From Bacteroidota bacterium (GTDB lineage Bacteria > Bacteroidota > Bacteroidia > Bacteroidales > FEN-979): 64,000 bases of DNA. This document shows, piece after piece, positions 125-42,908 of this stretch (positions are counted from its first letter, which is position 1; the number at the start of each line of letters is the position of its first letter). The translations under genes were made by a program, and so were the position numbers. A model generated the notes under the pieces. It saw nothing but the letters and a program-made list of their open reading frames with translations. It was not told the origin of the DNA and made no database searches. The stretch lies in the NCBI GenBank assembly GCA_026391835.1, contig JAPLDF010000068.1, positions 1 to 64,000 on the forward strand, given 5' to 3'.

Positions 125-181
125 ACTGATTAGTTACAAAAAGTTATATAACATTTTGTCTTTTCCTGAAGCCCATCTTTG
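125..181 (+). promoter_or_regulatory. Regulon site A (half-degenerate) and promoter of the first Mce operon
   Basis: The proximal half-site ATATAAC is at 146-152, preceded by AAAGTT, and the -7 box CATCTTTG is at 174-181. The gap between AAC and TTTG is exactly 25 nt, as at all other sites. The distal half-site expected at 125-131 reads ACTGATT and does not match. The first gene starts 72 nt downstream at 254. Confidence 0.7.
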
Positions 182-253
182 CAAAATAAATGTCAAACCT
201 GGAATCTCTTTTTTTTTGAGCCGGTAAATATGATCGCAATCCCAACATGATAC

Positions 254-1048
254 ATGTCCATTTTGTCTGCTAAAAAATACGTGTTCTCGAAAGAAACTGA
301 CCAATACCTGGTTGGCATTAACCAGGCATTCAGGTTTGTCGTGCGCTTTTTTAAAGAAGTATTTTCCAGGCCTTTCCATTTCCGGGAAGTAATAAACCAG
401 TGTTTTGAGGTTGGTTTAAAATCGCTCCCCTTGATCACGGTCACAGGCTTTATCATCGGCATTGTTTTTACAAAGCAATCACGGCCTTCACTGGAGAGTT
501 TCGGTGCAAGTTCGTGGCTGCCTTCATTAATGGGAGTAGCACTGGTAAAAGCACTGGGGCCGCTCGTAACAGCGCTTATCTGTGCTGGCAAAGTAGGTTC
601 CAGCATCGGGGCAGAACTTGGCTCGATGAAAGTGACCGAACAGATTGATGCCATGGAGGTATCGGCAATCAACCCGTTTAAATACCTTGTTGTAACCCGC
701 GTACTGGCAACGACCATCACCATTCCCCTGCTAGCATTGTACTGCAGCTTTGTAGCGTTGTATGGTTCCTACGTAAACGTTCATGCCGAAGAGGCTACCG
801 GGATCATTATCTTTTATAAAAACGCCTTTTCATCCATCTCCTTTATTGACATTTTTACCTCTTTGTCCAAAACGATTGTTTTCGGATTTACAATTGGCGT
901 CGTCGGCTGTTACAAAGGATACAATGCCATACAGGGCACACGCGGCGTTGGCAAGGCGGCAAACCAGGCAGTCGTGCTTGCCATGTTCCTTGTCTTTCTT
1001 GAAGAAATTGTAATTGTCCAGGTAGCCAACTGGATCAGATATTTTTAA
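254..1048 (+). CDS. MlaE-type ABC transporter permease (first Mce operon)
   Basis: A 264-residue integral membrane protein of the MlaE/YrbE permease family, the inner-membrane channel part of Mce/Mla lipid transporters that move phospholipids or other lipids between the two membranes. The central stretch GPLVTALICAGKVGSSIGAELGSMKVTEQIDAME (given here as GPLVTALICAGK and GAELGSMKVTEQIDAME) is the family hallmark, and several hydrophobic segments follow to the end. ATG at 254 lies 72 nt after the -7 box of site A. It is the first gene of a permease-ATPase-MCE operon with gaps of only a few bases, and is closely similar to the second permease at 2936-3775. Confidence 0.9.
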   Translation: MSILSAKKYVFSKETDQYLVGINQAFRFVVRFFKEVFSRPFHFREVINQCFEVGLKSLPLITVTGFIIGIVFTKQSRPSLESFGASSWLPSLMGVALVKALGPLVTALICAGKVGSSIGAELGSMKVTEQIDAMEVSAINPFKYLVVTRVLATTITIPLLALYCSFVALYGSYVNVHAEEATGIIIFYKNAFSSISFIDIFTSLSKTIVFGFTIGVVGCYKGYNAIQGTRGVGKAANQAVVLAMFLVFLEEIVIVQVANWIRYF

Positions 1049-1052
1049 CGTG

Positions 1053-1829
1053 ATGGAAAACCAGGAACAACATATCATCAATAAGGGTGAATCGGTTATT
1101 GCCATAAAAAGATTATATAAATCCTTCGAGGACCTTCACGTACTGAAAGGGATTGACTTTAATGTATTTAAAGGGGAGAATGTTGCTGTACTCGGTAAAT
1201 CGGGTTCAGGGAAATCTGTCCTGATAAAGATCATTGTAGGATTGCTGAAACCAGACAAAGGCGAAGTGGTTGTACTCGGAAAGGATATCGACAAACTGGA
1301 AGGCAAAGAATTGGATGCTTTGCGTTTGCGCATTGGTTTTTCATTTCAAAGCAGTGCGTTGTACGACAGCATGAGTGTTTATGAGAATCTTGCATTTCCG
1401 TTGACCATGAATTTTAAACATCTTGGTAAAAAGGAGGTGGATGCTGCTGTTATGGAGGCACTGGATGCCGTGGGTTTAACAGATAAAGTACGTCAAATGC
1501 CGTCGGACCTCTCAGGCGGCCAGCGAAAAAGAACAGGCATTGCACGTACACTCATCCTGAATCCCGAAATCATGCTTTATGACGAGCCGACCTCGGGACT
1601 GGACCCGGTTACGAGTTCAGAGATCAACGAACTTATCAACGAGGTCCAGAAACGATACAACACAAGTTCGGTCATTATTACCCACGACCTTACGTGTGCC
1701 AAGGCAACAGGCAACCGCATCGCGATGCTGATTGACGGAAAGTTCCTGAAAATCGGAACATTCAACGAGGTGTTCGACACCAAAGACGAACAGGTTACGA
1801 AATTCTACAATTACAATTTTATACAATGA
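1053..1829 (+). CDS. MlaF-type ABC transporter ATP-binding protein (first Mce operon)
   Basis: Cytoplasmic ATPase that energises the Mce lipid transporter by pairing with the MlaE-type permease. Visible motifs: Walker A GKSGSGKS, signature LSGGQRKR, Walker B LYDEPTSGLDP followed by the H-loop ITHD. The R-K-R after the signature is typical of MlaF/Ttg2A proteins. GTG at 1050 directly precedes ATG at 1053; I prefer the ATG. It begins 4 nt after the permease stop, so the two are translationally close. About 258 residues, a normal length. Confidence 0.92.
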   Translation: MENQEQHIINKGESVIAIKRLYKSFEDLHVLKGIDFNVFKGENVAVLGKSGSGKSVLIKIIVGLLKPDKGEVVVLGKDIDKLEGKELDALRLRIGFSFQSSALYDSMSVYENLAFPLTMNFKHLGKKEVDAAVMEALDAVGLTDKVRQMPSDLSGGQRKRTGIARTLILNPEIMLYDEPTSGLDPVTSSEINELINEVQKRYNTSSVIITHDLTCAKATGNRIAMLIDGKFLKIGTFNEVFDTKDEQVTKFYNYNFIQ

Positions 1830-5454: not shown

Positions 5455-5523
5455 AATGTGTGAATCATGTAAGAATATCATAAAGTTGTGTAACAGTTAA
5501 TCCTTCATTGCGGAGGACCTTTG
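5455..5523 (+). promoter_or_regulatory. Regulon site C and promoter of the OmpA gene
   Basis: AATGTGTGAATC, ATGTAAG (5467-5473), 14 nt, GTGTAAC (5488-5494), 25 nt, -7 box GACCTTTG at 5516-5523. Because the -7 box covers a possible TTG start at 5521, the real start of the next gene must be downstream, at ATG 5554. Confidence 0.88.
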
Positions 5524-6420: not shown

Positions 6421-6489
6421 AATGTGTGAATTATATAACTTTTAGGTAAAATTATGTAAGGCTATTTATCGCGACTAAACTTATCTTGT
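6421..6489 (+). promoter_or_regulatory. Regulon site D and promoter of a small membrane protein
   Basis: AATGTGTGAATT, ATATAAC (6433-6439), 14 nt, ATGTAAG (6454-6460), 25 nt, -7 box TATCTTGT (6482-6489, weaker). ATG of the next gene is 25 nt downstream at 6515. Confidence 0.82.
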
Positions 6490-6514: not shown

Positions 6515-6724
6515 ATGAAAAAAATTGCAATCGTAGTCATCCTGGCGGGATTGGTACTGACCATCTTTACAGCCTTTACTTTTTTCACCAGGGAGAAAAT
6601 CGTCGACCTCGGATCTGTTGAAATCACCAGGAGCAAACCGCACAACATCAACTGGTCACCGCTGATCGGTGTTGCAGTTATGGCGCTTGGCGGTGTCCTG
6701 TTGTGGGAGTCGGCACGAAAATGA
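6515..6724 (+). CDS. Small two-helix membrane protein (DUF3185-like)
   Basis: 69 residues with two hydrophobic segments (about 4-24, and 49-62) joined by a polar loop containing REKIVDLGSVEITR. The pattern of an N-terminal helix, a short 'lineage' loop with K/R-x-H and a final GVAVMALGGVLL helix resembles small stress-associated membrane proteins; I cannot fix the family from memory and give DUF3185-like only as a suggestion. It is first in its unit behind site D and is followed by the radical SAM gene after 3 nt. Confidence 0.75.
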   Translation: MKKIAIVVILAGLVLTIFTAFTFFTREKIVDLGSVEITRSKPHNINWSPLIGVAVMALGGVLLWESARK

Positions 6725-6727: not shown

Positions 6728-8209
6728 ATGAACATACTGTTGATATCCCCCCAGTTCCCCGATTCATACTGGAGTTTCAAGTATGCATTGCGGTTTATTT
6801 CCAAGAAAGCTGCTGAACCGCCCCTTGGACTGATAACCGTATCTGCGATGATCCCTGAAGGCTGGCATAAAAAGCTGGTGGATATGAATGTCTCGTCGCT
6901 GCGTTTGAAAGACCTACAGTGGGCCGATTATGCTTTTATCAGCGCCATGCACATTCAGCAGGATTCCGTTACAAAGATTGTTGATGACTGCATAAAATAC
7001 GGAGTTAAAACCGTTGCCGGGGGCCCCCTCTTTACGCAGGATTACCAGAACTATCCACAGATCGACCACCTCGTTCTCAATGAAGCGGAAATTACCTTTC
7101 CATGGTTTCTCCGCGACCTGGCTGCAGGCAATCCAGGGAAAACATACAGAACGGATGAATTTTCAGACATCTCAAAAACCCCTATTCCCGATTACCACCT
7201 GCTATCGAGAAAGCACTACGCTTCCATGAGCCTTCAGATTTCGCGGGGATGCCCGTTTTCATGTGAATTTTGTGAAATAGCTTCCCTGAATGGGCATAAA
7301 GTCAGGACAAAACCGACATGGCAAATCATTGCCGAGCTTGAAAAATTATATGAATTATCCTGGCGCGGGGCAGTGTTTATTGTGGATGACAATTTCATCG
7401 GCAATGTCAAAGCGATAAAATATGATTTGCTGCCTGCGATGAAATCGTGGATGAAGCTTCACAACTTTCCGTTCACATTTACGACCGAAGCATCCATCAA
7501 TCTCGCGGATGATGCCGAACTGATGCAGCTGATGGCCGACAGCGGGTTTAACACCGTCTTTATCGGCATTGAAACCCCGGAGGAAACCTCCCTCAATGAA
7601 TGCAACAAGATCCAGAATAAAAACCGGGACCTGATCCGGAGCATAAAAAACATCCAGCAGGCAGGACTCCAGGTTTCGGGTGGTTTTATCGTGGGGTTCG
7701 ACAACGACACGCCTTCCGTTTTCCAGCGCCAGGTCGATTTCATTCAGCAAAGCGGAATTGTGTCAGCCATGGTCGGACTGCTCAATGCACCCAGGCACAC
7801 CCGCCTTTATACCCGGCTGCAGGCGGAGAACCGGATCACCAACGAGGCAAACGGCAACAATACCGATTTTTCGCTGAATTTCATTCCCAAAATGAACCCG
7901 GTTGAACTCATCCGGGGATACAAAAAGATATTACAGGATATTTATGCGACAAAACCTTATTATAAACGGGTCAGGGAGTTGTTCAAAAGTTACCGGCCCC
8001 GTCGCACGAAACATGCAAAAATCACTTTCACCCATGCCTGCGCTTTCATGAAATCCATATTGATCATTGGCCTGATAAACAAAGGAAGAAGGCATTACTG
8101 GAAACTGCTCCTGTGGACACTTTTCACCCGCCCCGCCCTGGTGGCAGATGCCGTTACTTTCTCCATATACGGCTATCACTTCAGGAAGGTATACGGAATC
8201 GGAATATGA
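6728..8209 (+). CDS. B12-binding radical SAM protein (DUF4070 type)
   Basis: 493 residues. An N-terminal cobalamin-binding fold (about 1-140, MNILLISPQFP, GGPLFT) precedes a radical SAM core with the cluster motif CPFSCEFC (CxxxCxxC), then a C-terminal helical region of the DUF4070 kind. Known relatives are cobalamin-dependent methylases, including the hopanoid C-2 methylase HpnP; the substrate here cannot be read from the sequence. Cotranscription with a small membrane protein behind site D, next to lipid transporters, makes a lipid substrate possible, but that is inference. Confidence 0.85.
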   Translation: MNILLISPQFPDSYWSFKYALRFISKKAAEPPLGLITVSAMIPEGWHKKLVDMNVSSLRLKDLQWADYAFISAMHIQQDSVTKIVDDCIKYGVKTVAGGPLFTQDYQNYPQIDHLVLNEAEITFPWFLRDLAAGNPGKTYRTDEFSDISKTPIPDYHLLSRKHYASMSLQISRGCPFSCEFCEIASLNGHKVRTKPTWQIIAELEKLYELSWRGAVFIVDDNFIGNVKAIKYDLLPAMKSWMKLHNFPFTFTTEASINLADDAELMQLMADSGFNTVFIGIETPEETSLNECNKIQNKNRDLIRSIKNIQQAGLQVSGGFIVGFDNDTPSVFQRQVDFIQQSGIVSAMVGLLNAPRHTRLYTRLQAENRITNEANGNNTDFSLNFIPKMNPVELIRGYKKILQDIYATKPYYKRVRELFKSYRPRRTKHAKITFTHACAFMKSILIIGLINKGRRHYWKLLLWTLFTRPALVADAVTFSIYGYHFRKVYGIGI

Positions 8210-8315: not shown

Positions 8316-8384
8316 TAGGTGTGAATGATGTAACTAATTTCCAAAATTTTGTAATACCGACCCGGAGCAGCGGGTTTACCTTCG
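8316..8384 (+). promoter_or_regulatory. Regulon site E and promoter of an outer-membrane protein
   Basis: GGTGTGAATG, ATGTAAC (8328-8334), 14 nt, TTGTAAT (8349-8355), 25 nt, -7 box TACCTTCG (8377-8384). Weaker proximal half-site and box than most, but the spacing is exact. It excludes a start upstream of 8390; ATG 8426 is used. Confidence 0.82.
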
Positions 8385-8425
8385 CCAGACTATTGAATAA
8401 CACCAACAATATTAAAAAAACAAAA

Positions 8426-8998
8426 ATGAAAAATCTAAAAGCAATTGTTTTACTCCTTGTTCTTATCACAGGAATTCCTCTAATAGCCTTCAGTGGCAAT
8501 GGCCCGGCTGATCCTGCCGGAAAAGGCAACGGTATCCTCGGATTCGGATTTGGCCCTGCCATTCCCTTTTATGGCGGTGAAGGCTTCGGGCCTGCCTTCA
8601 TGGTGCATTACGATCACGGCATCTGGCAGGCCGGCCCCGGAACGATCAGCCTGGGCGGACAAATCGGAACATCTTTTTTCTGGCACAACTATTCACACAA
8701 AGAAGTTCAGTACAGGGACAACTGGACAAACCTGGCTTTTGTTTTCAGGGGGGCCTATCATTACGGCTGGAAAGTTCCGGGTCTCGATACCTATGCCGGT
8801 TTTGGCGGGGGAACCCTGGTAAGCATGTACAACGACGGCGGCTATTACCCCGACAAACAACCCACCCACGTGAGTTACCTGCCAACTGCCTTTATGGGCG
8901 CCTCCTATTTCTTCAACGATGTGGTTGGCGTGAATGCAGAGTGTGGCTATAACTTTGCATTTATTTCGATTGGCCTTAATTTCAGGCTGACAAGATAG
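8426..8998 (+). CDS. Outer-membrane beta-barrel protein
   Basis: 190 residues from ATG 8426 (MKNLKAIVLLLVLITG), with a signal peptide and then alternating glycine- and aromatic-rich strands (IGTSFFWHNYS, FVFRGAYHYGW) ending NFAFISIGLNFRLTR, which fits a small eight-stranded barrel with a terminal aromatic. Function unknown; similar small barrels are common in Bacteroidota. It is alone between sites E and F. A longer frame from 8285 is rejected because the promoter lies inside it. Confidence 0.8.
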   Translation: MKNLKAIVLLLVLITGIPLIAFSGNGPADPAGKGNGILGFGFGPAIPFYGGEGFGPAFMVHYDHGIWQAGPGTISLGGQIGTSFFWHNYSHKEVQYRDNWTNLAFVFRGAYHYGWKVPGLDTYAGFGGGTLVSMYNDGGYYPDKQPTHVSYLPTAFMGASYFFNDVVGVNAECGYNFAFISIGLNFRLTR

Positions 8999-9035: not shown

Positions 9036-9104
9036 AATGTGTGAAAGATGTAATATATATCCAAAATTATATAACGGTTGGCCGCATGCCTGAACATACC
9101 TTTG
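9036..9104 (+). promoter_or_regulatory. Regulon site F and promoter of the DUF5670/AI-2E/GH130/GT4 unit
   Basis: AATGTGTGAAAG, ATGTAAT (9048-9054), 14 nt, ATATAAC (9069-9075), 25 nt, and a perfect -7 box TACCTTTG at 9097-9104. First gene starts at 9167. Confidence 0.88.
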
Positions 9105-20458: not shown

Positions 20459-20485
20459 AAGATGTTGAATACTAATCTTTAAGAA

Positions 20486-27645: not shown

Positions 27646-27659
27646 CCCATTGCAACCCT

Positions 27660-29081: not shown

Positions 29082-29567
29082 ATGAAAACCAACAAGGTTA
29101 AAAAAGTTCTGATTGCGCTCGACTACAATCCGACCGCACAAAAAGTTGCAGAAGTAGGTTTTGCAATGGCAAAATCCATAAACGCCGAAATCACCTTGCT
29201 CCATGTCATATCAGATCCGGTATATTATTCTTCAACGGAATTTTCTCCGATCATGGGGTATACCGGGAACCTGGATGCCGTACAACAGCAGATCGACACG
29301 GTAGAGGGCATGAAAACAGCTTCCCAGCACTTCCTGGATAAATCGAAACTCCACCTGGGCGATAAAACCATTCAAACACAGGTCAAAGAGGGTGATTTTG
29401 CTGAAACGATCCTGAAGACTGCAAAACAACTGCATGCCGATATCATTGTGATGGGCTCCCACAGCCGGAAATGGCTAGAAAATATCGTCATGGGAAGTGT
29501 AACAGAAAATGTGCTGCATCACACCTCTGTGCCGCTTTTTATCGTTCCCACAAAAAACCACAATTAA
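29082..29567 (+). CDS. Universal stress protein (UspA family)
   Basis: 161 residues, single Usp domain: N-terminal VKKVLIALDYNPTAQKVAEVGFAMA, and C-terminal HADIIVMGSHSRKW ... IVMGSVTENVLHHTSVPLFIVP. The ATP-binding pattern G-2x-G-9x-G-S/T is seen as G-SH-S-9x-G-S, so the second glycine is serine; nucleotide binding is therefore not certain. Cytoplasmic. In the site J unit. Confidence 0.93.
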   Translation: MKTNKVKKVLIALDYNPTAQKVAEVGFAMAKSINAEITLLHVISDPVYYSSTEFSPIMGYTGNLDAVQQQIDTVEGMKTASQHFLDKSKLHLGDKTIQTQVKEGDFAETILKTAKQLHADIIVMGSHSRKWLENIVMGSVTENVLHHTSVPLFIVPTKNHN

Positions 29568-31144: not shown

Positions 31145-31213
31145 AAAGTGTGAATGATGTAAATTCTTATCATAGTTGTGTAACACTTTTTTCTTCCAAA
31201 GAACGCACCTTTG
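31145..31213 (+). promoter_or_regulatory. Regulon site K and promoter of the 31252 gene
   Basis: AAAGTGTGAATG, ATGTAAA (31157-31163), 14 nt, GTGTAAC (31178-31184), 25 nt, -7 box CACCTTTG (31206-31213). ATG 31252 is 38 nt downstream. Confidence 0.87.
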
Positions 31214-31251: not shown

Positions 31252-31638
31252 ATGACAATCGAAAAAAAAGCCGGCATCTGGATGGATCATTCAAGTGCCC
31301 ACATGACCGAATTTTCCACCGGCCCGATGGAGACAAAAATCATTGTATCGGAGTTTACCCACCAGGAGAAAGAGGTTGGACTTGACAGAGGTGAAAACCA
31401 TATGCACATCAAGGAGCAGCATAAACAGTCGGAATATTACCGGAAAATAGGCGAGGCAATCAGAAATTATGACGAAGTGCTCCTGTTCGGCCCTACCGAT
31501 GCAAAAGAGGAACTGTTCAACATATTGAAGGAAGATCACCTTTTCTCAGCAATTAATTTCGGGATTAAACAAACTGATAAAATGTCAGAATTCAACCAGC
31601 ATGCATTTATCAGGCAATATTTTACCAAACCTGCGTAA
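31252..31638 (+). CDS. Conserved small protein, possibly eRF1/pelota-like fold
   Basis: 128 residues, cytoplasmic. Starts EKKAGIWMDHSSAHM and has a helix-strand pattern IGEAIRNYDEVLLFGPTDAKEELFNIL. This 'KAGIWMDHS...EVLLFGPG.AK.EL' layout is similar to proteins annotated as translational-machinery or eRF1-domain-3-like in Bacteroidota, from memory. Function not established. Behind site K; a 90-nt gap separates it from the DUF3943 gene. Confidence 0.7.
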   Translation: MTIEKKAGIWMDHSSAHMTEFSTGPMETKIIVSEFTHQEKEVGLDRGENHMHIKEQHKQSEYYRKIGEAIRNYDEVLLFGPTDAKEELFNILKEDHLFSAINFGIKQTDKMSEFNQHAFIRQYFTKPA

Positions 31639-31727: not shown

Positions 31728-33299
31728 ATGAAAACAGCCTGTGCATTCATATTTTTACTGATATTTTCTCAACTTCTGTATGCACAGGACGTGCCCCGTC
31801 AGAATCCTAAAAAAGTAGCACCCAACGATACGATCGTGCCCGGAAAAGGTACCCCCGAAAAGCAGATCGAAAAGATCAATGCTGTAAAGGTAAAGTTGCT
31901 TTCCGACTCAGTGGGGAATGAACCGAAAACGAGTGTCCTGGTCGATACGACCATGCAAAATAAATATGGCGACCTGCTTGATGATGACACTGCTTACAAT
32001 AAAAGATACCCGCTCTGGATCCCTGCGGCAGAGGTTCTTGGAGCGCTCACATTCACATGGGCGCTTGACAGGTATCTTTTAAATGTTGATTATGCGCGCG
32101 TTGGATTCCAGTCATGGAAATACAACATCAATACAGGATGGGAATGGGATACAGACCGGTTTGGCATCAATTTCATCGGCCACCCCTATTCAGGAACACT
32201 TTCGTACAATGCCGGACGTTCGAATGGTTACAACTTCCTGCAGTCCTTTTCTTTTGCTGTTGCCGGCAGCCTGATGTGGGAATATTTCGGCGAAAATTCC
32301 CGCCCGTCTTATAACGACATTATCAATACCCCGGTAAACGGAGCTTTTTTAGGTGAAATCCTGTACCGTTTAAGTTCGAACATCCTGGATGACCGGACAA
32401 GGGGAACACAAAGGATCTTTCGTGAAATTGCGGCCGGGATCATTGATCCGATGCGGGGTTTTAACAGGCTGATACAAGGAAAAACCTTCCGCACTACGAA
32501 TAAGGAAGTTTATGAAAAAGAGCCGGTCAACATATCGCTGTATGCAGGGGTGCGTAAAGTGAATGACCAGGGCAACAAACTATTCGGGAAAGGGGTATAC
32601 AATGCCATGCTCAACGCCCAGTTTGATTACGGAAATCCCTTCGAACTCCGTAAACGCAAGCCATTTGACTTTTTCAAACTGCGTGCGGATATCAACATCG
32701 GGGTGGGCCGGAAATTTGTCGACAACATCCTTGGTACCGCCATTTTGTTTGGGAAGAATGAGCAGTTGGGCAAACTTGCCCTGCTGGCCGGGGGATTTCA
32801 ATATTACGATTACTGGGACAATAAAAAATTCGAACTAGGCACAATCGGCTTCGGAGGAGGTGTGGTTTCGAAATTACCCATCGGCAGGACTAGCAACCTG
32901 TATACCAGGATTGACCTGGCTTTGGTTCCTTTTGCAGGCAACAGCACCCATTTCGGCCCTGACACTTCACAGGTGAGGGATTACAACTATGGCGGAGGTA
33001 TGGAGACGAAATTAGAGACCACGTTTAATCTTGGCAAATATGCCACTGCTTCGGTGGTCTATTACTTTTACTGGATCCGCACCTATATCGGCATCAACGG
33101 AAATAACTTCATCCACATATTAAAGCCAAGAATTACCGTCAGGCTATACAAATACCTGAGCATCGGGGTTGAAAATTACATGTATTACAATGACCGGTAC
33201 CTGAGGGGTTATCCGGCCATACATGCCGTGCAGACTGAACAAAAGATCTTCCTGATATTTTACCTGGAAGATAAACAGCGACGGGGAAATTACAATTAA
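31728..33299 (+). CDS. DUF3943 outer-membrane-associated protein
   Basis: 523 residues with signal peptide (MKTACAFIFLLIFSQLLYA). The middle region (RYPLWIPAAEVLGALTFTWALDR, NFIGHPYSGTLSYNAGRSNGYN, EILYRLSSNILDD) is the DUF3943 pattern, with conserved HP and N-R positions; the second half is beta-rich and ends in a barrel-like tail (FLIFYLEDKQ). Probably in the outer membrane; function unknown. It may be read from site K through the previous gene or from its own promoter. It converges on the DUF4421 gene. Confidence 0.85.
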   Translation: MKTACAFIFLLIFSQLLYAQDVPRQNPKKVAPNDTIVPGKGTPEKQIEKINAVKVKLLSDSVGNEPKTSVLVDTTMQNKYGDLLDDDTAYNKRYPLWIPAAEVLGALTFTWALDRYLLNVDYARVGFQSWKYNINTGWEWDTDRFGINFIGHPYSGTLSYNAGRSNGYNFLQSFSFAVAGSLMWEYFGENSRPSYNDIINTPVNGAFLGEILYRLSSNILDDRTRGTQRIFREIAAGIIDPMRGFNRLIQGKTFRTTNKEVYEKEPVNISLYAGVRKVNDQGNKLFGKGVYNAMLNAQFDYGNPFELRKRKPFDFFKLRADINIGVGRKFVDNILGTAILFGKNEQLGKLALLAGGFQYYDYWDNKKFELGTIGFGGGVVSKLPIGRTSNLYTRIDLALVPFAGNSTHFGPDTSQVRDYNYGGGMETKLETTFNLGKYATASVVYYFYWIRTYIGINGNNFIHILKPRITVRLYKYLSIGVENYMYYNDRYLRGYPAIHAVQTEQKIFLIFYLEDKQRRGNYN

Positions 33300-33322: not shown

Positions 33323-34387
33323 TTAATAACGCTTTGCATTTGCAGGACTGTTTTTCTTTTTCCTGAAGGTGTCAAACCGTGTCCCTCCCCAAAGGCGGAA
33401 TTGCGCTACATCATAGCTGAAAAGTGCATTGTTAAGCTTATCCGGAATTTCATTGAACCCTGTTTGAACAGAGCCTCCTAGAAACCATTTATCCGAATTG
33501 TAACCAAGTGCAAACCGGCCGCTGAGCTGAAAAGCAAATTCAAAGTCGGAATGTATCTTATTTGCATTGCTGTATGATGAAAATTGGGCAGCAACGCCGG
33601 GAAAAGCTGCCGCTGTCAGGTAAAAATTCTTCAGGAAGACAAAGGTATAAACATAACCGGGGGAGATTTCAATGGCATAAAACTTACCCCTTGTGACATT
33701 ATTTACGGCTGGGATATTATAGGTGTTCATGATTTCCTGCGGAATAATGCCGTTGCCTGAAGTGATCTGGTAATAGAGAAATGCCGGCCGTACCACCAGG
33801 CTGCCGGCGCTTCGTTTTTGTCTTTCATTCTGGATAAAGGCGGCCCGGATCGAAAACCTCGTGGAGTTGTAAATCCAGTAACCTGCCAGGCCCAGTGAAA
33901 AGGTTCGCATATCCGGGATAATGTAATGGCCTCCACCGGGTTGCTCAGGTGAACTGATATAAAACCCTTTGTATTGCTGAACAAAAAATTCGGCTGCAAG
34001 GGCCCGCCCGAAGGCATTTATCCGAAGATCAAGGGTTGATGTTTTCCCATAGGCCTCACGGTCGGTTTTGTAGAATGGATTGTCAATGGAAAGCCCCAGG
34101 CCAAACCACTTCCAGAACCCGGCGATGCCGATGCGGACATTTACGTTCGGACGATATACGATATTGGGAATTTTATCTATGTCGGGGTTGATGACCAGCG
34201 AGGCATTCTGAAAAAGCAGGAACAGGCGGGTCGTCAATAAACCGGTATAATCTGCGAGATAGGTGCTGTCGAATGCTGCGGGAACTACTTCCGGTCCCTG
34301 CAGGTCAGATTGCGCATCAGCCGGTTTTAGGGTGAACAAAAGGAAGATACAGGCTATTCCGGTAATAAAGGTTCTTACTGACATCAT
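33323..34387 (-). CDS. DUF4421 outer-membrane protein
   Basis: 354 residues with signal peptide ending near ADAQS. The start of the mature part, DSTYLADYTGLLTTRLFLLFQNASL, and RPNVNVRIGIAGFWKWFGLGLSI, then QQYKGFYI and FSIRAAFIQNERQKRSAGSL, match the DUF4421 barrel family of Bacteroidota. Function unknown. It is separated from the upstream Thivi_2564 gene by 114 nt holding a long hairpin (34421-34485). Two adjacent ATGs (34387, 34384) could start it. Confidence 0.85.
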   Translation of the reverse strand: MMSVRTFITGIACIFLLFTLKPADAQSDLQGPEVVPAAFDSTYLADYTGLLTTRLFLLFQNASLVINPDIDKIPNIVYRPNVNVRIGIAGFWKWFGLGLSIDNPFYKTDREAYGKTSTLDLRINAFGRALAAEFFVQQYKGFYISSPEQPGGGHYIIPDMRTFSLGLAGYWIYNSTRFSIRAAFIQNERQKRSAGSLVVRPAFLYYQITSGNGIIPQEIMNTYNIPAVNNVTRGKFYAIEISPGYVYTFVFLKNFYLTAAAFPGVAAQFSSYSNANKIHSDFEFAFQLSGRFALGYNSDKWFLGGSVQTGFNEIPDKLNNALFSYDVAQFRLWGGTRFDTFRKKKNSPANAKRY

Positions 34388-34501: not shown

Positions 34502-34687
34502 TTATACGTGTATCCCCATCAGGTAGCTGAATAAGCCAAATACCTTGAGAAGCCAGACAACAACAACAACCACAACGACAACGTTGAAGATACTTTTAAT
34601 TTTCCGATCCATCGGGATGTAGGTGTTCACCAGCCAGAGCAGGACGCCTGCAACAATCAGTACGATTAAAATAGTGAAAAGTGGCAT
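34502..34687 (-). CDS. Thivi_2564-family small membrane protein
   Basis: 61 residues from ATG 34687 (MPLFTILIVLIVAGVLLWLVNTYIPMD). Two hydrophobic helices separated by a YIPMDRKIK turn, the second with a Val run and ending WLLKVFGLF, match the Thivi_2564 membrane protein family of unknown function. A TTG-started frame from 34714 overlaps the -7 box of site L and is rejected. First gene behind site L. Confidence 0.9.
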   Translation of the reverse strand: MPLFTILIVLIVAGVLLWLVNTYIPMDRKIKSIFNVVVVVVVVVWLLKVFGLFSYLMGIHV

Positions 34688-34711
34688 AAAATCAGTTTTA
34701 GAATTATTGGT

Positions 34712-34780
34712 CAAAGGTAATCCGGCCGGCTCCCTGAAGTGTTACATAACTTCTTTAATAAATTACATCATTCACACATT
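34712..34780 (-). promoter_or_regulatory. Regulon site L and promoter of the Thivi_2564 gene (minus strand)
   Basis: Read on the minus strand: AATGTGTGAATG, ATGTAAT, 14 nt, ATGTAAC (34747-34741), 25 nt, perfect -7 box TACCTTTG (34719-34712). ATG 34687 is 24 nt downstream. The GTGTGA also supplies the stop codon of the YceI gene. Confidence 0.9.
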
Positions 34781-35386
34781 TTTCAATATTTTCACCAGGG
34801 TTACCGGCTCCAGTTCCATGGTGAGGTCACTCTGCCCTATATTGGTCAGTTCCATTTCGCATAAAATCGACACCTCCTCTCCTACCATCAGGCCACCGGC
34901 TTCAATGGGAGTATTCCAAACCAATCCCCAGTCACTCCTGGTCAGTTTCCCTGTAACCGTAAATCCGGCCTTCTCATTTCCCCATGGATCATGGGCAATT
35001 CCTCCGAATTGCAAATTCAGTTTTATATTTTTCGAAACACCCCTCATGGTGAGTTCACCCCATAATTCATGGTTGCCTTCATGGTCGGGATTCCCGATGG
35101 TACTTGAAGTGAAGGTGATTTGCTTGTGATGCTGCACATCAAAAAAATCAGCGCTCTTCAAATGTTCATCACGCTTTTCATTGCCGGTATCGATCGAAGA
35201 GACATCGATCCACAGGTCTACTTCAACTGTGGTGAAATCCTTTTCAAAAGTATAGATACTTGCATCAAATTTTTTAAACGCCCCTTTGACATGGGCAATC
35301 ATCAGGTGTTTTACGTTAAAGCCAATTTCACTGTGCGCCAGGTCAATTGACCATTTTGTTTTCCCTGCAACTTCTTTGGTTTTCAT
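34772..35386 (-). CDS. YceI-family protein
   Basis: 204 residues of one YceI domain: WSIDLAHSEIGFNVKHLMIAHVKGAFKKFDA, then DEHLKSADFFDVQHHKQITF, GELTMRGVSKNIKLNLQFGG and SDWGLVWN (segments). YceI proteins form a lipocalin-like barrel binding isoprenoid-type lipids. Unlike the E. coli protein, no signal peptide is seen, so it may be cytoplasmic. It lies 20 nt after the SnoaL-like lipoprotein gene. Its stop TGA (34774-34772) lies within regulon site L. Confidence 0.92.
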   Translation of the reverse strand: MKTKEVAGKTKWSIDLAHSEIGFNVKHLMIAHVKGAFKKFDASIYTFEKDFTTVEVDLWIDVSSIDTGNEKRDEHLKSADFFDVQHHKQITFTSSTIGNPDHEGNHELWGELTMRGVSKNIKLNLQFGGIAHDPWGNEKAGFTVTGKLTRSDWGLVWNTPIEAGGLMVGEEVSILCEMELTNIGQSDLTMELEPVTLVKILKNV

Positions 35387-35406: not shown

Positions 35407-36009
35407 TTATTTCCCTAATCCAATCTGGTTCATATATGTTTGATTATCCCAAAACAGATACTCCTCAATCATCACACCATCCTTCCAGATCCCGACTGTA
35501 CACATTGGCAGTGTAAATGATTTACCGGTTGGCTGGATAAATTTCCCGTTGCCAGCAGGCATTGGCATGGTGAATGTCCCTGTCATGACACCTGTCACAC
35601 AAGTCATGTTTGCTGATCCAAAACGAACAGGGTGCTGCTTTATGCTGGTGTTCGGGGCGTAAACGAACATGGCTTTCAGATCTGCAACATGCCGTTCAAT
35701 CCCAATGGTGTAATGTCCGTCGGGCCAGTTGACCTTGATGTCCTTTGAGTGGCTTTCATGCATGCGTGACCACTCCTGGTTGCTGAACACCTTGAAGTCA
35801 AGGGTGTCGAAGGTTACCAGGTTTTTCGAAATCATTTCATTCCCGGCAGTGAGTTCTGTAATCTGGTTTCGCAGTGAGTCAATTGTTGACTGGGCTATAG
35901 AATTGTTGCTGCCATCCGGCGTGCAGCCCATGAAAGCTGACAAGCCTCCTATGATCATCACTGCTGCAAATGCTTTAATTGTCATCGATACTTTTTTCAT
36001 TTTATTCAT
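35407..36009 (-). CDS. SnoaL/NTF2-like lipoprotein
   Basis: 200 residues from ATG 36009 (MNKMKKVSMTIK; ATG 36000 is an alternative). The signal peptide ends in a lipobox, LSAFMGC. A short coiled coil (TIDSLRNQITELTAG) precedes an NTF2-like/ester-cyclase-type domain (WSRMHESHSKDIKVNWPDG, VPMCTVGIW-like TLPMCTVGIWKDGVMIEEYLFWDNQTYMNQIG in parts), as in polyketide-cyclase relatives that bind small hydrophobic molecules. Function unknown. Member of the BON-SnoaL-YceI operon behind site M. Confidence 0.8.
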   Translation of the reverse strand: MNKMKKVSMTIKAFAAVMIIGGLSAFMGCTPDGSNNSIAQSTIDSLRNQITELTAGNEMISKNLVTFDTLDFKVFSNQEWSRMHESHSKDIKVNWPDGHYTIGIERHVADLKAMFVYAPNTSIKQHPVRFGSANMTCVTGVMTGTFTMPMPAGNGKFIQPTGKSFTLPMCTVGIWKDGVMIEEYLFWDNQTYMNQIGLGK

Positions 36010-36105
36010 TTTAGTTATTGGGTTAAACAAGTGATTCTCTATAATGTTATTTATTGAGCGACTGTGCTGCTTTGATGAGAAAATCAGAGGCTGTGAGCCA
36101 GCCAA

Positions 36106-36762
36106 TCAATTATAATCTATCACCAATTCATTATCAACCGCCCAAACACCCGGGGCACTCCAGGCGATCCGTCCGGCCTCCTCCTTCTGGTACAATGAAT
36201 CAACGGTACCGGTCAGCATCACCCTGTTGCCGGCAACTTTCACGTCGATATCCTGATCACACATGGACCAGTTGCGTACAAAAGCGCGTTCAATACCACG
36301 TTTTTCAATGGCATCGTGTATTTCAGATTTTATGGTGATGTTGTTTGTGACACCTTTTACACCAATGATGTTTTTTACTGATTTGGCAGCGGCTTCCCTC
36401 TGGTAATTCCAGGTTAACTCTCCTTCAAGTTTTACCCAACCTTCTTCAACGGTAACTTTTACTTTATCATTGGGAATTTCCCAGTTCCACTTGAACGCAC
36501 TCAATACTTCATTTGCAATTTCGCTGTCATTTTTTTTCCAGGAGCTGGCAAACCTGACTTCTATGTTTTCGACGACCGCTTTAACGCCTGCCACACTTTT
36601 AGCAGCCTCTTCAGCCTCCGATTTCTTGGCGTAACTGTCAACAACCCCTGTTAAGGTGACGACACCGTCTTTCACTGTAACGCCGATTTCGGCTGCGTTC
36701 AGCAATGGTTCCCATTTGATGGCAGCCTGAACGTCTTTCTGCAAATCTTCATTTTTTTTCAT
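36106..36762 (-). CDS. Three-BON-domain protein (OsmY-like, without signal peptide)
   Basis: 218 residues built of three BON domains, about 6-72, 80-147 and 150-216, each with the VTVxxGxVxLxGxV strand pattern ([45 protein letters not shown]). BON domains bind phospholipid; E. coli OsmY is a stress-induced periplasmic example. No signal peptide is seen here, so the location is unclear, possibly cytoplasmic. ATG 36762 is 39 nt after the -7 box of site M, first gene of its operon. Confidence 0.92.
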
Positions 36763-36801: not shown

Positions 36802-36870
36802 CAAAGGTGACCAGGTATTTGCCGGAACCTGTTATATAATCCTTGAAATAAGTTACATGATTCACACTTA
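36802..36870 (-). promoter_or_regulatory. Regulon site M and promoter of the BON-SnoaL-YceI operon (minus strand)
   Basis: On the minus strand: AAGTGTGAATC, ATGTAAC, 14 nt, ATATAAC (36837-36831), 25 nt, -7 box CACCTTTG (36809-36802). Confidence 0.88.
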
Positions 36871-37351: not shown

Positions 37352-39337
37352 TTACAATTCCCGGGCCACCTGGTTCGCATCCCATATGGTATTCATGATA
37401 TTGCGTACGGCATGGGAATCACCTACATTGTATATCACCTTGCCGGACCCACTCATTGTGTCATAAAGCTGGTTTTGGGAATGATAACCCACTGCAACCA
37501 TGATGGTATCCGCCTTGATCTCTTTCACGCCATCCTGTGTTTCAACAGTCACGGAAGAATCTGTAACCGCTTTGACAGCAGCGCTGCACATGACATCAAT
37601 CTTGTTGAAAACCAGCAGATCCCTTAGCATATCGTAATTTGCAAAACACATGAATTTTCCGCCATCAAGGATTTCGGGCATCGACTCGACGATGGATACC
37701 TTTTTGCCTTGTCCGCGCAGCCACAAGGCTGTTTCGCACCCTATCAGGCCTCCGCCCACAACGACAATATCCTCTCCGCTGATCCTGGTGCCCAGGAGAA
37801 GTTCATCCGCTGTACAAACGTTGTTCTTATCCCCGAAATCCAGCATCACAGGCGTGGAGCCCATGGCAATGATCACGGCATCCGCACCGGATTTTTCGAT
37901 CATTTCCTTATCCGCGGTCACATTGAACAGCACTTTTACGGGCAGTTTGCCGAGTTGAACCGTGTACCATTTCAGCAATGCACGGTCGTCCTTCTTGAAA
38001 TCCGGAACGCTCCCCGGGAGGATGTTGCCTCCGAGTTTGCCGGTTTTTTCAATGAGCGTGACTTTATGCCCGCGGATCGCACATACCCGTGCCGCCTCCA
38101 TACCGGCGAGGCCCCCGCCAATTACCAGGACATTTTTCCTGTTTGTTACGGGTGTCAGCTCAAACGATTTTTCCCTGCCGCATGCAGGATTGACGGCGCA
38201 TGAAATTGGCAAACCATGAGCGAGCCTGTCCAGGCAGCCCTGGTGACAGGAGAGGCATGGCCGGATATCTTCCAGGTTGCCTGTTTTAATTTTTTCCGGC
38301 AGGTAGGGATCCGCCAGGAGGGGCCTGCCATAGCCGATGATATCACAGCAGGTTCCGAGCGCTTCGCACGCCATTTCCGGGTTATCCATTCTCCCGGCCA
38401 GGATGATTGGAACAGCGACATGTTGTTTGAGAATTTTACCGAATTCGCGGTACATGCCCTTTTCAAAATACATGGGCGGATGGTTCCAGTACCAGGCATC
38501 ATAGGTGCCTGCATCCACATTCAGCATGTCATAGCCAGCCTCCACGAGGATTTTGGCTGCCTCAACTCCTTCGGCAATATCCTTGCCCAGTTCCACAAAC
38601 TTCTCACCCGGCAATGCACCGTGCCGTATTCCCTTGACAAAGCTTTTTAAACTGTAACGCAGCGACACCGGGTAATCCTCACCACAGGCCGCCTTGATTC
38701 CTTTTACAATGTCTGTGGCGATTTTGAGGCGTCCATGAAGATCGCCGCCATACGCATCGGTTCTTTTGTTATAAAGGGCTATGGCGAACTGATCGAGGAG
38801 GTAACCTTCGTGTACAGCATGTACCTCGACACCGTCAAATCCCGAATCCCTGGCGATAACCGCACAGGTTACAAAAGAGGCGATCAGCACTTTGATCTCA
38901 TCGACCGTCATCGCCTGGTGATGAATTGAAGGGTCCCACCTGTTTTCCTGTTCCGACGGGGCGATTGCCCTTGTCATCAGGTGCGGGATCGCGGCCCTCC
39001 CGAAACCTCCTGTAAGCTGGAGGAAAATTTTCGCATCATACGCATGAATTCTTTCGTTCATCGGAGCACATGATTTTGCAAACATCAGAGGCTGGTATGC
39101 AGCGCAAGGCATGAGCAGCAATGGCAGTTCATTGTAGTTGACATTTGTAATGCCCGTGATGATCAGGCCAGTGCCACCTTTGGCACGCTCAACATAATAG
39201 TCCTGTGCATTTTCGGAGAAGCCGCCGCACGGATCAGCCATTGCCACCATTCCCAGGGGTGCCATGGAGATGCGGTTTTTCAGCGTTAGTTTTCCCACTG
39301 TAAGGGGCTCAAATAGTTTCTGGAAGTTACCTGACAT
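37352..39337 (-). CDS. NADH:flavin oxidoreductase (old-yellow-enzyme/dienoyl-CoA reductase type)
   Basis: 661 residues. An N-terminal OYE-like TIM barrel binds FMN (about 1-345, LTLKNRISMAPLGMVA, GFDGVEVHAVHEGYLLDQF); a [4Fe-4S] motif follows (CLSCHQGC...CAVNPACG), and then an FAD/NAD(P) domain (VLVIGGGLAGMEAARVC, VVVGGGLIGCETALWL). This is the layout of 2,4-dienoyl-CoA reductase FadH and trimethylamine dehydrogenase relatives, which reduce activated double bonds; the substrate is unknown. It sits behind site N, with the Rieske gene next. Confidence 0.92.
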   Translation of the reverse strand: MSGNFQKLFEPLTVGKLTLKNRISMAPLGMVAMADPCGGFSENAQDYYVERAKGGTGLIITGITNVNYNELPLLLMPCAAYQPLMFAKSCAPMNERIHAYDAKIFLQLTGGFGRAAIPHLMTRAIAPSEQENRWDPSIHHQAMTVDEIKVLIASFVTCAVIARDSGFDGVEVHAVHEGYLLDQFAIALYNKRTDAYGGDLHGRLKIATDIVKGIKAACGEDYPVSLRYSLKSFVKGIRHGALPGEKFVELGKDIAEGVEAAKILVEAGYDMLNVDAGTYDAWYWNHPPMYFEKGMYREFGKILKQHVAVPIILAGRMDNPEMACEALGTCCDIIGYGRPLLADPYLPEKIKTGNLEDIRPCLSCHQGCLDRLAHGLPISCAVNPACGREKSFELTPVTNRKNVLVIGGGLAGMEAARVCAIRGHKVTLIEKTGKLGGNILPGSVPDFKKDDRALLKWYTVQLGKLPVKVLFNVTADKEMIEKSGADAVIIAMGSTPVMLDFGDKNNVCTADELLLGTRISGEDIVVVGGGLIGCETALWLRGQGKKVSIVESMPEILDGGKFMCFANYDMLRDLLVFNKIDVMCSAAVKAVTDSSVTVETQDGVKEIKADTIMVAVGYHSQNQLYDTMSGSGKVIYNVGDSHAVRNIMNTIWDANQVAREL

Positions 39338-39449: not shown

Positions 39450-39518
39450 CAAAGGTGGAATATGGAACCGGGGTAGGAGTTACACAATACCGGAAATAAG
39501 TTACATCATTCACATGTT
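39450..39518 (-). promoter_or_regulatory. Regulon site N and promoter of the flavin oxidoreductase-Rieske unit (minus strand)
   Basis: On the minus strand: AACATGTGAATG, ATGTAAC, 14 nt, GTGTAAC (39485-39479), 25 nt, -7 box CACCTTTG (39457-39450). The leader is about 105 nt. The ATGTGA also supplies the stop codon of the DUF748 gene. Confidence 0.87.
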
Positions 39519-41894
39519 TTGCAGGATGACCCTGTTATTACTGTTTTTCTTACGTTCTTTCCTGTATTTTTCCCTTGGTGCTTCATTGTTTAAGTCATTC
39601 ATCCTGCGGTGCGCCCTGATCAATGCAGCTGGAAGATCACCCTTGTAATCAATTTTATAAAATGAGAACCCATTGTACGGGATGTCGTTCCCGCCCGTAT
39701 GAACGTTCACGCGGGTTTGCACGGATTTTTTCTTAAACGGCGACAAAAAGGCAGCCTTTCTTTCCTCACCCAGTCTTTTAAAACTGTCATCAATTAATGC
39801 TTTACCTACGAAACTGCTGCATTTCTCCTGGATGGTATACAGCGTGGTGTCGCGCACAAACCTGGCCAGGTAACGCATAAACAAAGAATCTTTCACCGAC
39901 ATTTTATCAACACTTTCGGAATCACCTTCGCTAAAAGACCTGGCATTTTTATGATTGATCAGCAGAAAATACTTTTTCTTTGCTTCAAAAAACAGGATAT
40001 ATTCCTTCTCCTTTTCAGCATATTGTACCGGGAAAACACCGATGGAGGCTTCCAGGTTGTCTGCCAGGTAATCCGCCATCTTATTTACAAAGCGCTCCTG
40101 GTCCCGCATCAGGGTGCTTGTTCGCAAGCCCCATGTCAGGGTGAGCGATTGCTCAATTTCGGATTCAATGTTTTTAACCTCGACTCTATAGGCGGTCGTC
40201 GCCGGTTTCACAAAAATATTCTCGATCAAATCGACGAGCACGTCGTGTAAATGAAACTTCGGGTCCTTCAGGTTCCCGGTTATCGGAATCTGGTAATCAA
40301 TCACATTGCCACGTTCGCGGACCAGGGACATGATGAGCGGCAGGGGAAGCCATTTTTTATCTTTGTTTCTCACCCTTTTTGTCCGGCGCGGATCCAAAAT
40401 AAGTATATGGTTGTTGCTCTGTATTATCCCGTTCCGCACCCTCCAGCAACCATTCAATTCAATGGTTCCCCGGTTTAACGGGTAAGAAGTATAGGTGATT
40501 ATGTATGGGTTGAACATGGCCACCGGCAATTTTTGCAGGGCATATTGAATATCAAAATCCATGCTGTCTCTTGGGTTCATTCTCAGGACCACGGAGATAT
40601 TGCCATAGGGTTTTATCCCGGTTTTCAGATATGCATCAACCTGTTTATGGTCCTTGTCAATGGAATCGGCAGTTATATACAGGGGGAATAAATCAACCGA
40701 AAATTTCTCGCTGATGGCATAGTCATTGAATTTCAGATCGCCGTTGTAAATTGCAAGCCGGTTGATCTTGTATTCACTTTGAAAAAAGTTTTTCGCCAGC
40801 ACTTTAACGTACCGGGCTATTTCAACAACAAGGTTGAATTTAGCCGGATCTGATGTGGCTGCAGTGATGTTAACTCCGTTTTTACCAAACATCATTTGCA
40901 CATTATCCAGGTAATCGTAGCGCTCAAATTTCAGAAACGGGTGGCTGAGAGATACCGAATCAAACAGGTAGATATGATTCTCAGGGCTTATTTCCGTAAT
41001 AGCCAGTACCAATTTGGTAAAGGAGGCCATGTCATCTTTCGTATTCTTCCCAAAATGAAAATCATTTATTGCCAGCTGCCCCGACATGGTCAGGTTTTCC
41101 TGGTCCCTGAAGTTTCCTTTCGCTTTCACTTCTGCATCAAGGTTGGCGGAAAAGATTCCGTTGTTCGTTAAATCCTTCAGGTACTGCTGAATAATATTCA
41201 AATCGAATTTATGAGCGGTAACTGCATATCGATAATCCTGGTTTTTAAAATTGATGGTAAAATCGCCTTTCGCATCACCGCCGCCGGTACCGGGCAATAA
41301 TGAGAACCGGGCAGCAATTGTGTCAGAATTCCAGCGTTTTCCGGAACTCTCAATGTTTACATTTTTGATATAGTAGTTTATGGGGATCCGCTTTTCACGG
41401 TAATGGAATTCACCATTGATGATATGAATTCCCAGAATCGAAAAATGAATGGATGCCGGAGCGGTACTCGGCTTTTTGGGGGTGTAAAATTTTATCACGT
41501 CGGTAAAATTCAACAGCTTTTCATTCTGAATAACAATCCCTTTGGGCTGATCCAGGGTGATTTCGGTAATTTCTATCGTTTTTGACAACAATTTTAGCAG
41601 GGCGAAATTGGCACTTACACCTTTCGATGAAAAGAAGATGCTGTCGCCGGAACTCACGGCAGGCAGTGTTTTTGATTCGTAAATTACCAGGTTGCTGAGG
41701 TGTATATAACCTGTGAACGGGTTTACATACGCCCAACCAAGTTCAATTTGCCGTCCGGTGTATTTCTCATCGTACTTTTCGATGATATATTTTGTGATGG
41801 GGGAGATCAGTATGATAATGACAATCACTGCTAGGAGAACGGACCCGATGACAAGGATTGTTATTTTTTTAAACCTGGTGTTGGCAATTTTCAT
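39510..41894 (-). CDS. DUF748/AsmA-like envelope protein
   Basis: 794 residues: one N-terminal transmembrane helix (about 11-33), then a very long periplasmic part of repeated beta-rich segments (ELGWAYVNPFTGYIHLSNLVIYE, GEFHYREKRIPINYYIKNVNIE in parts). This fits DUF748, part of the AsmA-like group of bridge-forming lipid transfer proteins between inner and outer membranes. The C-terminus contains VRDTTLYTIQEKCSSF. It is 14 nt behind the PAP2 gene and shares site O. Its stop codon lies within site N. The lipid role is known for relatives only. Confidence 0.85.
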   Translation of the reverse strand: MKIANTRFKKITILVIGSVLLAVIVIIILISPITKYIIEKYDEKYTGRQIELGWAYVNPFTGYIHLSNLVIYESKTLPAVSSGDSIFFSSKGVSANFALLKLLSKTIEITEITLDQPKGIVIQNEKLLNFTDVIKFYTPKKPSTAPASIHFSILGIHIINGEFHYREKRIPINYYIKNVNIESSGKRWNSDTIAARFSLLPGTGGGDAKGDFTINFKNQDYRYAVTAHKFDLNIIQQYLKDLTNNGIFSANLDAEVKAKGNFRDQENLTMSGQLAINDFHFGKNTKDDMASFTKLVLAITEISPENHIYLFDSVSLSHPFLKFERYDYLDNVQMMFGKNGVNITAATSDPAKFNLVVEIARYVKVLAKNFFQSEYKINRLAIYNGDLKFNDYAISEKFSVDLFPLYITADSIDKDHKQVDAYLKTGIKPYGNISVVLRMNPRDSMDFDIQYALQKLPVAMFNPYIITYTSYPLNRGTIELNGCWRVRNGIIQSNNHILILDPRRTKRVRNKDKKWLPLPLIMSLVRERGNVIDYQIPITGNLKDPKFHLHDVLVDLIENIFVKPATTAYRVEVKNIESEIEQSLTLTWGLRTSTLMRDQERFVNKMADYLADNLEASIGVFPVQYAEKEKEYILFFEAKKKYFLLINHKNARSFSEGDSESVDKMSVKDSLFMRYLARFVRDTTLYTIQEKCSSFVGKALIDDSFKRLGEERKAAFLSPFKKKSVQTRVNVHTGGNDIPYNGFSFYKIDYKGDLPAALIRAHRRMNDLNNEAPREKYRKERKKNSNNRVILQNM

Positions 41895-41908
41895 GTTGGT
41901 ACGCCACC

Positions 41909-42811
41909 TTAACGGGCAAGACGTTTCCGGTCAAGTTTCCAGCGAACACTCAATCCCACTTCCTCGGGTGAGGTAGACAAGCCCACGGAGAGGTATTTGC
42001 TGCATGACAACTTATGCAAAGCGGGAACAACTATGCCAATTACGGCACCAAGGCCAAAGCCTACGGCCACATCCGAAGGGAAATGATCCAGCGACTTTAT
42101 CCTCGCATATCCTATTGCCAGCGGGGGGATCGATGCAGCGAGATACAACAGGTATTTTGCCGCCCCCAGATCAGGGTGATAATCACAGTACACCTTGGCC
42201 ATGAAGAATGTACTGTAGGCGCAGGAACCGACATGTCCGCTAAAAAATGCGTTGCGGGTATTGTTGTTGTTCATCCTGTAATCATCCGTAAATCCTTCAG
42301 TTCCGTTCTGCGGATAATACACGAAAGGCCTGAACCGGTTCACGAAGGTCGGCCCGAGCGGACTATAATTGTAAAAACTGAACGTCACCGTGTGGCCTTC
42401 CACATACATCAAAAGCAGGTCAAGCCAATCCTTGCGGATCTCCTTATCGATGATGAGCAGACCGGGCAGAATGAAGATGCCGATTTCACCGTAATCTGAG
42501 ATCTTTTTATACAGGGTACGATCGGAGGATTTTTGATGCAAAGCCCAGCGGTCTATTGAATTGATCAGGTTTTTCTGCTGATCGGTGTTTGCAAAGGCCA
42601 ACTCTTCACTGGTAAGTTTTGGCTTGCTTTTCAACCGGCCGATGGCAAAATAATCCGAAGCCATCCCCACGGCGATGATGCTACCGGTAACATAATAGTT
42701 AACGTGGTAGCGTTTTGTTTTCACTTTTGGCTTGACAACGGAGTCGGCCGGCTGGCTGAATGTATTGCCGGAAAAAGCCAGTAGAATCAGCAGACAGAAT
42801 ATTTTTCGCAT
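41909..42811 (-). CDS. PAP2-superfamily phosphatase, envelope
   Basis: 300 residues with signal peptide (MRKIFCLLILLAFSGNTFS). PAP2 acid phosphatase motifs: VNRFRPFVYY (first, K/R-x6-RP type), FFSGHVGSCAYSTFF (SGH), and ARIKSLDHFPSDVAVG (R-x5-H-x3-D). Such enzymes dephosphorylate phosphatidate, phosphatidylglycerol phosphate or polyprenyl pyrophosphate in the envelope. First gene behind site O, 28 nt after the -7 box, with DUF748 next, so the pair suggests lipid handling. Confidence 0.92.
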   Translation of the reverse strand: MRKIFCLLILLAFSGNTFSQPADSVVKPKVKTKRYHVNYYVTGSIIAVGMASDYFAIGRLKSKPKLTSEELAFANTDQQKNLINSIDRWALHQKSSDRTLYKKISDYGEIGIFILPGLLIIDKEIRKDWLDLLLMYVEGHTVTFSFYNYSPLGPTFVNRFRPFVYYPQNGTEGFTDDYRMNNNNTRNAFFSGHVGSCAYSTFFMAKVYCDYHPDLGAAKYLLYLAASIPPLAIGYARIKSLDHFPSDVAVGFGLGAVIGIVVPALHKLSCSKYLSVGLSTSPEEVGLSVRWKLDRKRLAR

Positions 42812-42839
42812 GGTAAAAAATGTAACTTAAATTCGAAAG

Positions 42840-42908
42840 TAAAGGTGAACACTTTTGCTGCTGAAAGTGTTACACAACTTTTGAAATAAGTTATATCATT
42901 CACACATT
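42840..42908 (-). promoter_or_regulatory. Regulon site O and promoter of the PAP2-DUF748 operon (minus strand)
   Basis: On the minus strand: AATGTGTGAATG, ATATAAC, 14 nt, GTGTAAC (42875-42869), 25 nt, -7 box CACCTTTA (42847-42840). The GTGTGA is also the end of the second AraC gene. Confidence 0.88.

Follow-up and report, generated by a model that had tools for sequence, protein, structure and literature searches.

In the first 43 kb of a 64,000-nucleotide (nt) stretch of DNA from a Bacteroidota bacterium (contig JAPLDF010000068.1 of assembly GCA_026391835.1, positions 1 to 64,000; hereafter the window), a 69-bp promoter-like element stands in front of one gene after another, in 14 intact copies and one split copy. 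What reads this element, and what kind of response does it serve? With a probability of roughly three in four, the element serves as operator-promoter for a regulon that is turned on by a short AraC-family activator encoded at two places in the same cluster (14046-14624 and 42903-43460). The original prediction, made from the letters of the window, had already read the cluster as a regulon, and that reading holds up; it named no regulator, and the phylum-wide extent described below lay beyond its data.

Sequence and spacing of the 69-bp element

The element begins with AATGTGTGAATNATGTAAC, has a second half ending TTNTRTAAC 21 bp further on and closes with a -7 box. When up to three mismatches were allowed, the 19-mer AATGTGTGAATNATGTAAC was found 15 times in the window against 0.03 expected from shuffles, so that the element passes comparison with shuffled sequence; one match (36774, plus strand) is a lone half and the other 14 are the intact sites, B to O. 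Self-comparison gives a repeat period of 21 bp, with a mean of 8.1 matches in 13 positions at this shift and 2.6-5.1 at nine others (15-20 and 22-24). Counting the first base as 0, the -7 box has A at 62 and TT at 65-66 in all 14 sites. It had been described as a TAnnTTTG-type box; all 14 have this degenerate form (A and TT), the strict TAnnTTTG is present in four of the 14 and TTTG in nine. A second TTTG, starting at positions 33-47 (around -33), is missing from 13 of the 14, the sole exception being the site at 27069, where it starts at 45. Conservation is confined to the half-sites and the box: the linkers, the flanks and the stretch before the box differ among the window sites.

The predicted constancy of the gaps was confirmed, and their quoted lengths of 14 and 25 nt are corrected to 15 nt (19-mer to TRTAA) and 22 nt (TRTAA to the 8-nt box) under another cutting of the halves, on which these figures depend. 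Even when both gaps were allowed to vary (3-30 and 8-38 nt), a scan of nine genomes (the bacterium's own and eight relatives) returned 103 matches with a total length of 65 nt in 102 and 66 nt in one. The shared 69-bp architecture is thus borne out by 14 intact sites, to which a further site, A, is added that an insertion has split (see below).

Across the 5.35-Mb genome, a 63-nt pattern comprising the two halves and the box (up to three mismatches) matches 33 times and its reversed form not at all. Fourteen matches are on the window contig, five at the end of contig C4, four on C84, two each on C41 and C43, and six occur singly. One of these matches (C15:69526; L054 6188-6610, minus strand) falls inside a 140-amino-acid open frame reading CETCKEFPEMCNTF and was rejected as a probable coding coincidence; about 32 genome sites are therefore taken as real. 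Near-identical matches of this kind are listed for other genomes of the family (G005, G013, G015 and G017). The frame on C15 is small and cysteine-containing, and such coding matches can mislead pure pattern scans.

A scan by half-site gave 36 matches, among them the split site on C4 (70984, plus strand) and four without the second half (C61, C26, C41:110893 and C12:36776). At C41:102126 (L046 8125) both halves are present, but the usual offset holds no -7 box; there seems to be a similar one roughly 2 nt beyond it. A matrix trained on both halves of the 14 intact sites, but not on their box, found 35 sites in the 216 kb that were fetched and one in reversed sequence, and 31 of the 35 have A..TT(T/G) at offset 23. 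The other four are two window sites with TTC or TTTA at the end of the box, the split site and C41:102126. The earlier statement that no site follows 43 kb is true of the window, where the best later score is 8.2 against at least 18 for all 14 sites; other contigs hold a further 19 matches. The sites are not randomly placed either: as predicted, they stand just ahead of genes, with start codons within about 400 nt for all fetched sites except the split one. The genome scan and the spacing together support a clustered regulon with one promoter architecture.

A short AraC-type protein as candidate reader

The genome encodes two short AraC-type proteins (about 190 amino acids, 69% identical) and one paralogue at 37% identity. 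Both short genes lie inside the cluster. Copy 1 (P0001; 14046-14624, plus strand), with an HMA-like N-domain and an AraC DNA-binding domain, is preceded by site G, and the end of copy 2 (P0002; 42903-43460, minus strand) is overlapped by site O. The short AraC-type protein is the most likely reader of the element.

The C-terminal double helix-turn-helix (HTH) domain of AraC/XylS factors is present. In the predicted structure of P0002 (mean pLDDT, the predicted local distance difference test, 89.1), residues 1-63 adopt a beta-alpha-beta-beta-alpha-beta (ferredoxin-like) fold like that of HMA copper chaperones, as judged by a VIA-align comparison limited to the chains ranked highest by Foldseek. 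By sequence, P0002 has no match to PF00403 (HMA) at E 0.1, four of 33 aligned members do match (best E 0.0015), and the 37% paralogue (C2) scores 16.8, below the curated cut-off of 24.8; the first 66 residues found nothing credible among PDB sequences (best E 1.1). The metal-binding motif MxCxxC is not preserved. The window copies read MVSTRC and MVSARC, and the first cysteine is replaced by serine in 75 of the 79 database loci read (one of 80 was not read and one was misread), the second cysteine having been demanded by the retrieval pattern itself.

Sites and gene go together among relatives. In the genus, all 11 genomes with the short AraC gene have at least seven sites and all seven without it have 0-3 (Fisher test at five or more sites, 11/11 against 0/7, 3e-5). 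In the family (43 genomes, with G011 dropped from the count for its partial gene), at least five sites were found in 19 of 24 genomes with the gene and in one of 18 without it (Fisher 1.6e-6); these statistics ignore kinship among the genomes. Among 295 further genomes of the class, 44 have a close homologue (E <=1e-65), and of these 18 have at least five sites and 42 at least one, as compared with at least five sites in 6/87 genomes with a mid-range homologue and in 4/164 of the rest. The 37% paralogue was itself considered as the reader and set aside: the seven genomes of the genus with 0-3 sites keep a 34-38% paralogue. It lies in a 374-amino-acid frame (L057 4086-5207, minus strand) with the HMA-like and AraC parts in the second half and about 180 N-terminal residues without a Pfam match.

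The association recurs across the phylum. A scan of named genomes returned at least 544 relatives, and the best 80 loci were taken as the phylum locus set. They come from Flavobacterium, Chryseobacterium, Aquimarina, Algoriphagus, Echinicola, Dyadobacter, Cellulophaga, Sunxiuqinia and other genera and include entries labelled Melioribacteraceae and Balneolaceae. At a score of 18 the window matrix finds 115 sites in 67 of the 80 loci and none in reversed sequence; at 14 it finds 152 sites in 74 loci and four in reversed sequence. The scan of related genomes that had been proposed thus shows the motif recurring near the AraC gene in most loci. Spacing could have varied elsewhere, which would have spoken against the prediction; it hardly does so in the family, and in the phylum loci the untrained -7 box is found mostly at offset 23 or the adjacent 22. 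In 24 of the best 80 loci the AraC gene has a site at its 3' end, and in 18 one stands directly before it. In a profile search of 296 phylum genomes, 138 had a match at E <=1e-40, a threshold that also admits the paralogue type.

Genes behind the sites

The window targets include two Mla-type operons and several small open reading frames (ORFs). On the plus strand, site B (2844-2912) precedes genes for MlaE (2936), an ABC ATPase (3817) and MlaD (4647), and site C (5455-5523) an OmpA-family gene ending at 6351. Site D (6421-6489) is upstream of a small ORF (6515-6724) and a radical-SAM gene (6728-8209), site E (8316-8384) of a gene without a Pfam family (8393-8998), and site F (9036-9104) of genes for a DUF5670 small protein (ending at 9322) and an AI-2E-type permease (9327). 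Site G (13854-13922) precedes copy 1 of the AraC-type gene and is a candidate for autoregulation. Then follow site H (27069-27137) before a small ORF (27162-27332), site I (27358-27426) before a small ORF (27451-27645) and a BrkB-family gene (27618-28562), site J (28616-28684) before an ORF (28707-29063) and a universal stress protein gene (29082-29567), and site K (31145-31213) before an ORF (31252-31638) and a DUF3943 gene (31728-33299). On the minus strand, site L (34712-34780) is upstream of a small ORF (34502-34714, its start probably nearer 34685) and a DUF4421 gene (33323-34387), site M (36802-36870) of BON (36106-36762), SnoaL (35407-36105) and YceI (34772-35386) genes, and site N (39450-39518) of an NADH:flavin-oxidoreductase-type gene (37352-39337). 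Site O (42840-42908) overlaps the last codons of AraC-type copy 2 and lies upstream of PAP2 (41909-42811) and DUF748/AsmA (39510-41894) genes.

Site A (125-181) had been taken for a proximal half only. This is correct for the part in the window (proximal half and -7 box, 138-181, plus strand); what had been missed is that a complete site was cut between its half-sites by an insertion, the distal half being on contig C4. The insertion, whose right end occupies positions 1-137 (plus strand), has an 8-bp duplication, AAAAAGTT, on either side and 13-bp terminal inverted repeats, GTAACTAATCAGT. At the end of C4 (L045 19016-19154) the full distal half is followed by AAAAAGTT and then GTAACTAATCAGT. 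The window starts with the presumed transposase tail (open frame 1-117), followed by ACTGATTAGTTAC, AAAAAGTT and the proximal half, the terminal inverted repeat lying at 125-137. The joined flanks, AATGTGTGAATCATGTAAC-ATATTTAAAAAGTTATATAAC-21 nt-CATCTTTG, have the architecture and spacing of the intact sites. IS66 elements are marked by GTAA ends and an 8-bp target duplication; both are present here, and we take the insertion to be IS66-like. Of the presumed transposase, the window contains 39 amino acids, and this fragment gave no Pfam family above the cut-off and no plasmid match. Because the 8-bp target duplication lies between 13-bp inverted repeats, C4 and the window very probably adjoin. 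Joined in this way, the cluster would cover about 55 kb plus the insertion and hold 20 sites (14 in the window, five on C4 and site A). The Mla operon behind the split site (MlaE, ABC and MlaD genes from 254) may now be without this control.

Targets elsewhere in the genome include genes for CsbD, two ice-binding proteins, DUF6600, BON, a TerB-like protein (weak match), a cation ATPase, a haem-binding domain, patatin, PAP2, OmpA, an ABC ATPase and an alcohol-dehydrogenase-type protein, together with some without a family. The two ice-binding proteins carry secretion tails; their genes are adjacent, and each has a separate site in front of it (L045 10573-15298). In the database loci a first downstream ORF was found for 101 of the 115 sites and none for 14. 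By Pfam the 101 comprise 20 AraC, nine ice-binding, eight cupin, four YtxH, four CsbD and three DUF1003 genes, whereas receivers (11) and kinases (7) are commonest among 103 control ORFs from the same loci. Ice-binding, cupin, YtxH, CsbD and DUF1003 are all absent from the 25 commonest of 131 control-ORF families, and the comparison holds within the 25 families shown on each side (of 36 for targets and of 131 for controls). Ferritin-like genes occur twice among controls and once among targets, and an NADH:flavin oxidoreductase once among controls. Since 17 of 120 sampled control ORFs were excluded by hand (for the most part stretches covering the query AraC gene, the remainder being some ORFs that came last in the sample list), the AraC counts (20/101 and 4/103) are not comparable. 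Judged by family, the targets (Usp, BON, CsbD, YtxH, DUF1003, YceI, PAP2, Mla, ice-binding) look like general and envelope stress genes, these families being ones that we take to be of the stress type.

At sites G, L, N and O, four of the 14 in the window, the TGA of the motif doubles as the stop codon of the preceding gene. In the database loci it ends an open frame of at least 120 amino acids at 17 of 95 sites that contain TGA, against 27 of 3448 background TGA triplets. In several of the loci L146-L225 the preceding gene is the AraC gene itself, and the operator spells its last residues.

Genes for a PAS hybrid histidine kinase and a single-domain receiver (14631-17779, plus strand) adjoin regulator copy 1 and may provide signal input; two cation-transporting P-type ATPases (17810-23143, plus strand) belong to the same gene run. 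Also inside the cluster are a CheB-CheR-PAS fusion protein and a PAS protein (23288-26732), possibly a further signal input, and a DnaJ with a MerR-type partner is encoded in the same gene run as window sites.

Proposed mechanism, alternatives and known systems

We propose that two AraC DNA-binding domains would occupy the 21-bp direct repeat, both on the same face of the helix. The proximal half, at about -45 to -33 in the expected numbering (box at about -11 to -4), would thereby replace the -33 TTTG and, in class II style, recruit RNA polymerase carrying the primary sigma factor; the sigma factor would read the -7 box, and the promoter would be activated. The short AraC regulator would also control its own gene. 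Its output would be envelope-protecting and general stress proteins, and a stress signal might enter through the HMA-like domain or through the neighbouring PAS kinase and receiver. The stronger argument for a polymerase contact is the fixed helical phase, which outweighs the missing TTTG.

Several observations qualify this proposal. The missing TTTG is by itself weak evidence because promoters of F. johnsoniae are reported to have a -7 motif and no identifiable -33 motif (PMC7366714). Sites also occur in genomes for which the profile search returned no homologue (G281 alone gave a weak partial hit): G237 (24 sites), G281 (17), G195 (7), G166 (11, with four control hits) and G029 (9). G237 and G281 are near-complete, and their fetched site clusters (L231-L234 and L235-L239) contain no regulator gene.

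The many sites of G237 and G281 without a short AraC gene would fit the same activator-promoter design with another reader, which might be a response regulator or an AraC protein of the hybrid two-component type, the short AraC gene being only a frequent target; receivers and kinases are indeed common neighbours in the control set (11 and 7 of 103). We regard this as unlikely, as sites track the short AraC gene within one genus (11/11 against 0/7) and, when the fetched clusters were searched with a model of this family's HTH half, the C2 paralogue was the sole further AraC-type domain to turn up, although remote ones could escape the model. It is more improbable still that the sites are repressor operators, at which the AraC-type protein blocks promoters until stress frees them. 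The proximal half does lie where polymerase contacts the -33 region in the expected numbering, but the -7 box keeps a constant distance, which an activator would require and a blocking protein would not; that 13 of 14 sites have no TTTG around -33 also speaks against a repressor, a weak point given the F. johnsoniae promoters (PMC7366714). A dispersed repeat, mobile or structural, that happens to bear a promoter is a barely credible reading of the element despite its many similar copies within one cluster, because the linkers and flanks differ, only half-sites and box being conserved, and because it recurs with one gene across the phylum.

Returning to the short AraC activator, we tentatively extend the proposal to the phylum: Bacteroidota may do without a dedicated sigma factor in a general stress response in which an HMA-AraC fusion, descended from a metal sensor and keeping one of its cysteines, acts as master activator of primary-sigma promoters without a -33 box and governs a phylum-wide regulon through a rigid 21-bp repeat. 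In the open-access literature we found no description of the element or of a master stress regulator of Bacteroidota, subscription papers and preprints being mostly outside this scope. Since there is a single gene, a single motif and a set of targets already listed, the question is testable in culturable species, and the motif allows candidate stress genes of unknown function to be listed from Bacteroidota genomes. If the proposal is true, it describes a compact activator-dependent promoter type for the phylum.

Among known systems, the copper chaperones GolB, Atx1 and CopZ resemble the regulator in the predicted fold of residues 1-63. They carry MxCxxC, whereas the regulator mostly has MVSxRC, with one cysteine lost and one kept. 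The AraC class II activators (araBAD, MarA/SoxS-type) are alike in the PF12833 domain, the 21-bp direct repeat and a proximal half at -35/-33. Unlike AraC, the regulator described here has about 190 amino acids, an HMA-like N-domain in place of the sugar-binding domain, and many operons rather than one. The -7 box resembles the TAnnTTTG box of the Sigma-ABfr promoters of Bacteroidetes, as defined in PMC7366714, with the strict form at four of 14 sites. The element differs from these in mostly lacking the -33 TTTG and having an activator half-site instead. Special sigma factors run the best-known general stress responses, and the Sigma-B, RpoS and EcfG regulons have overlapping kinds of target (CsbD, BON, Usp, YtxH and small membrane proteins). 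For Sigma-B, the main text of PMC9847131 mentions none of csbD, ytxH and dps. The regulon proposed here is of a different kind, implying no alternative sigma factor and combining a -7 box of the primary-sigma type with an activator site.

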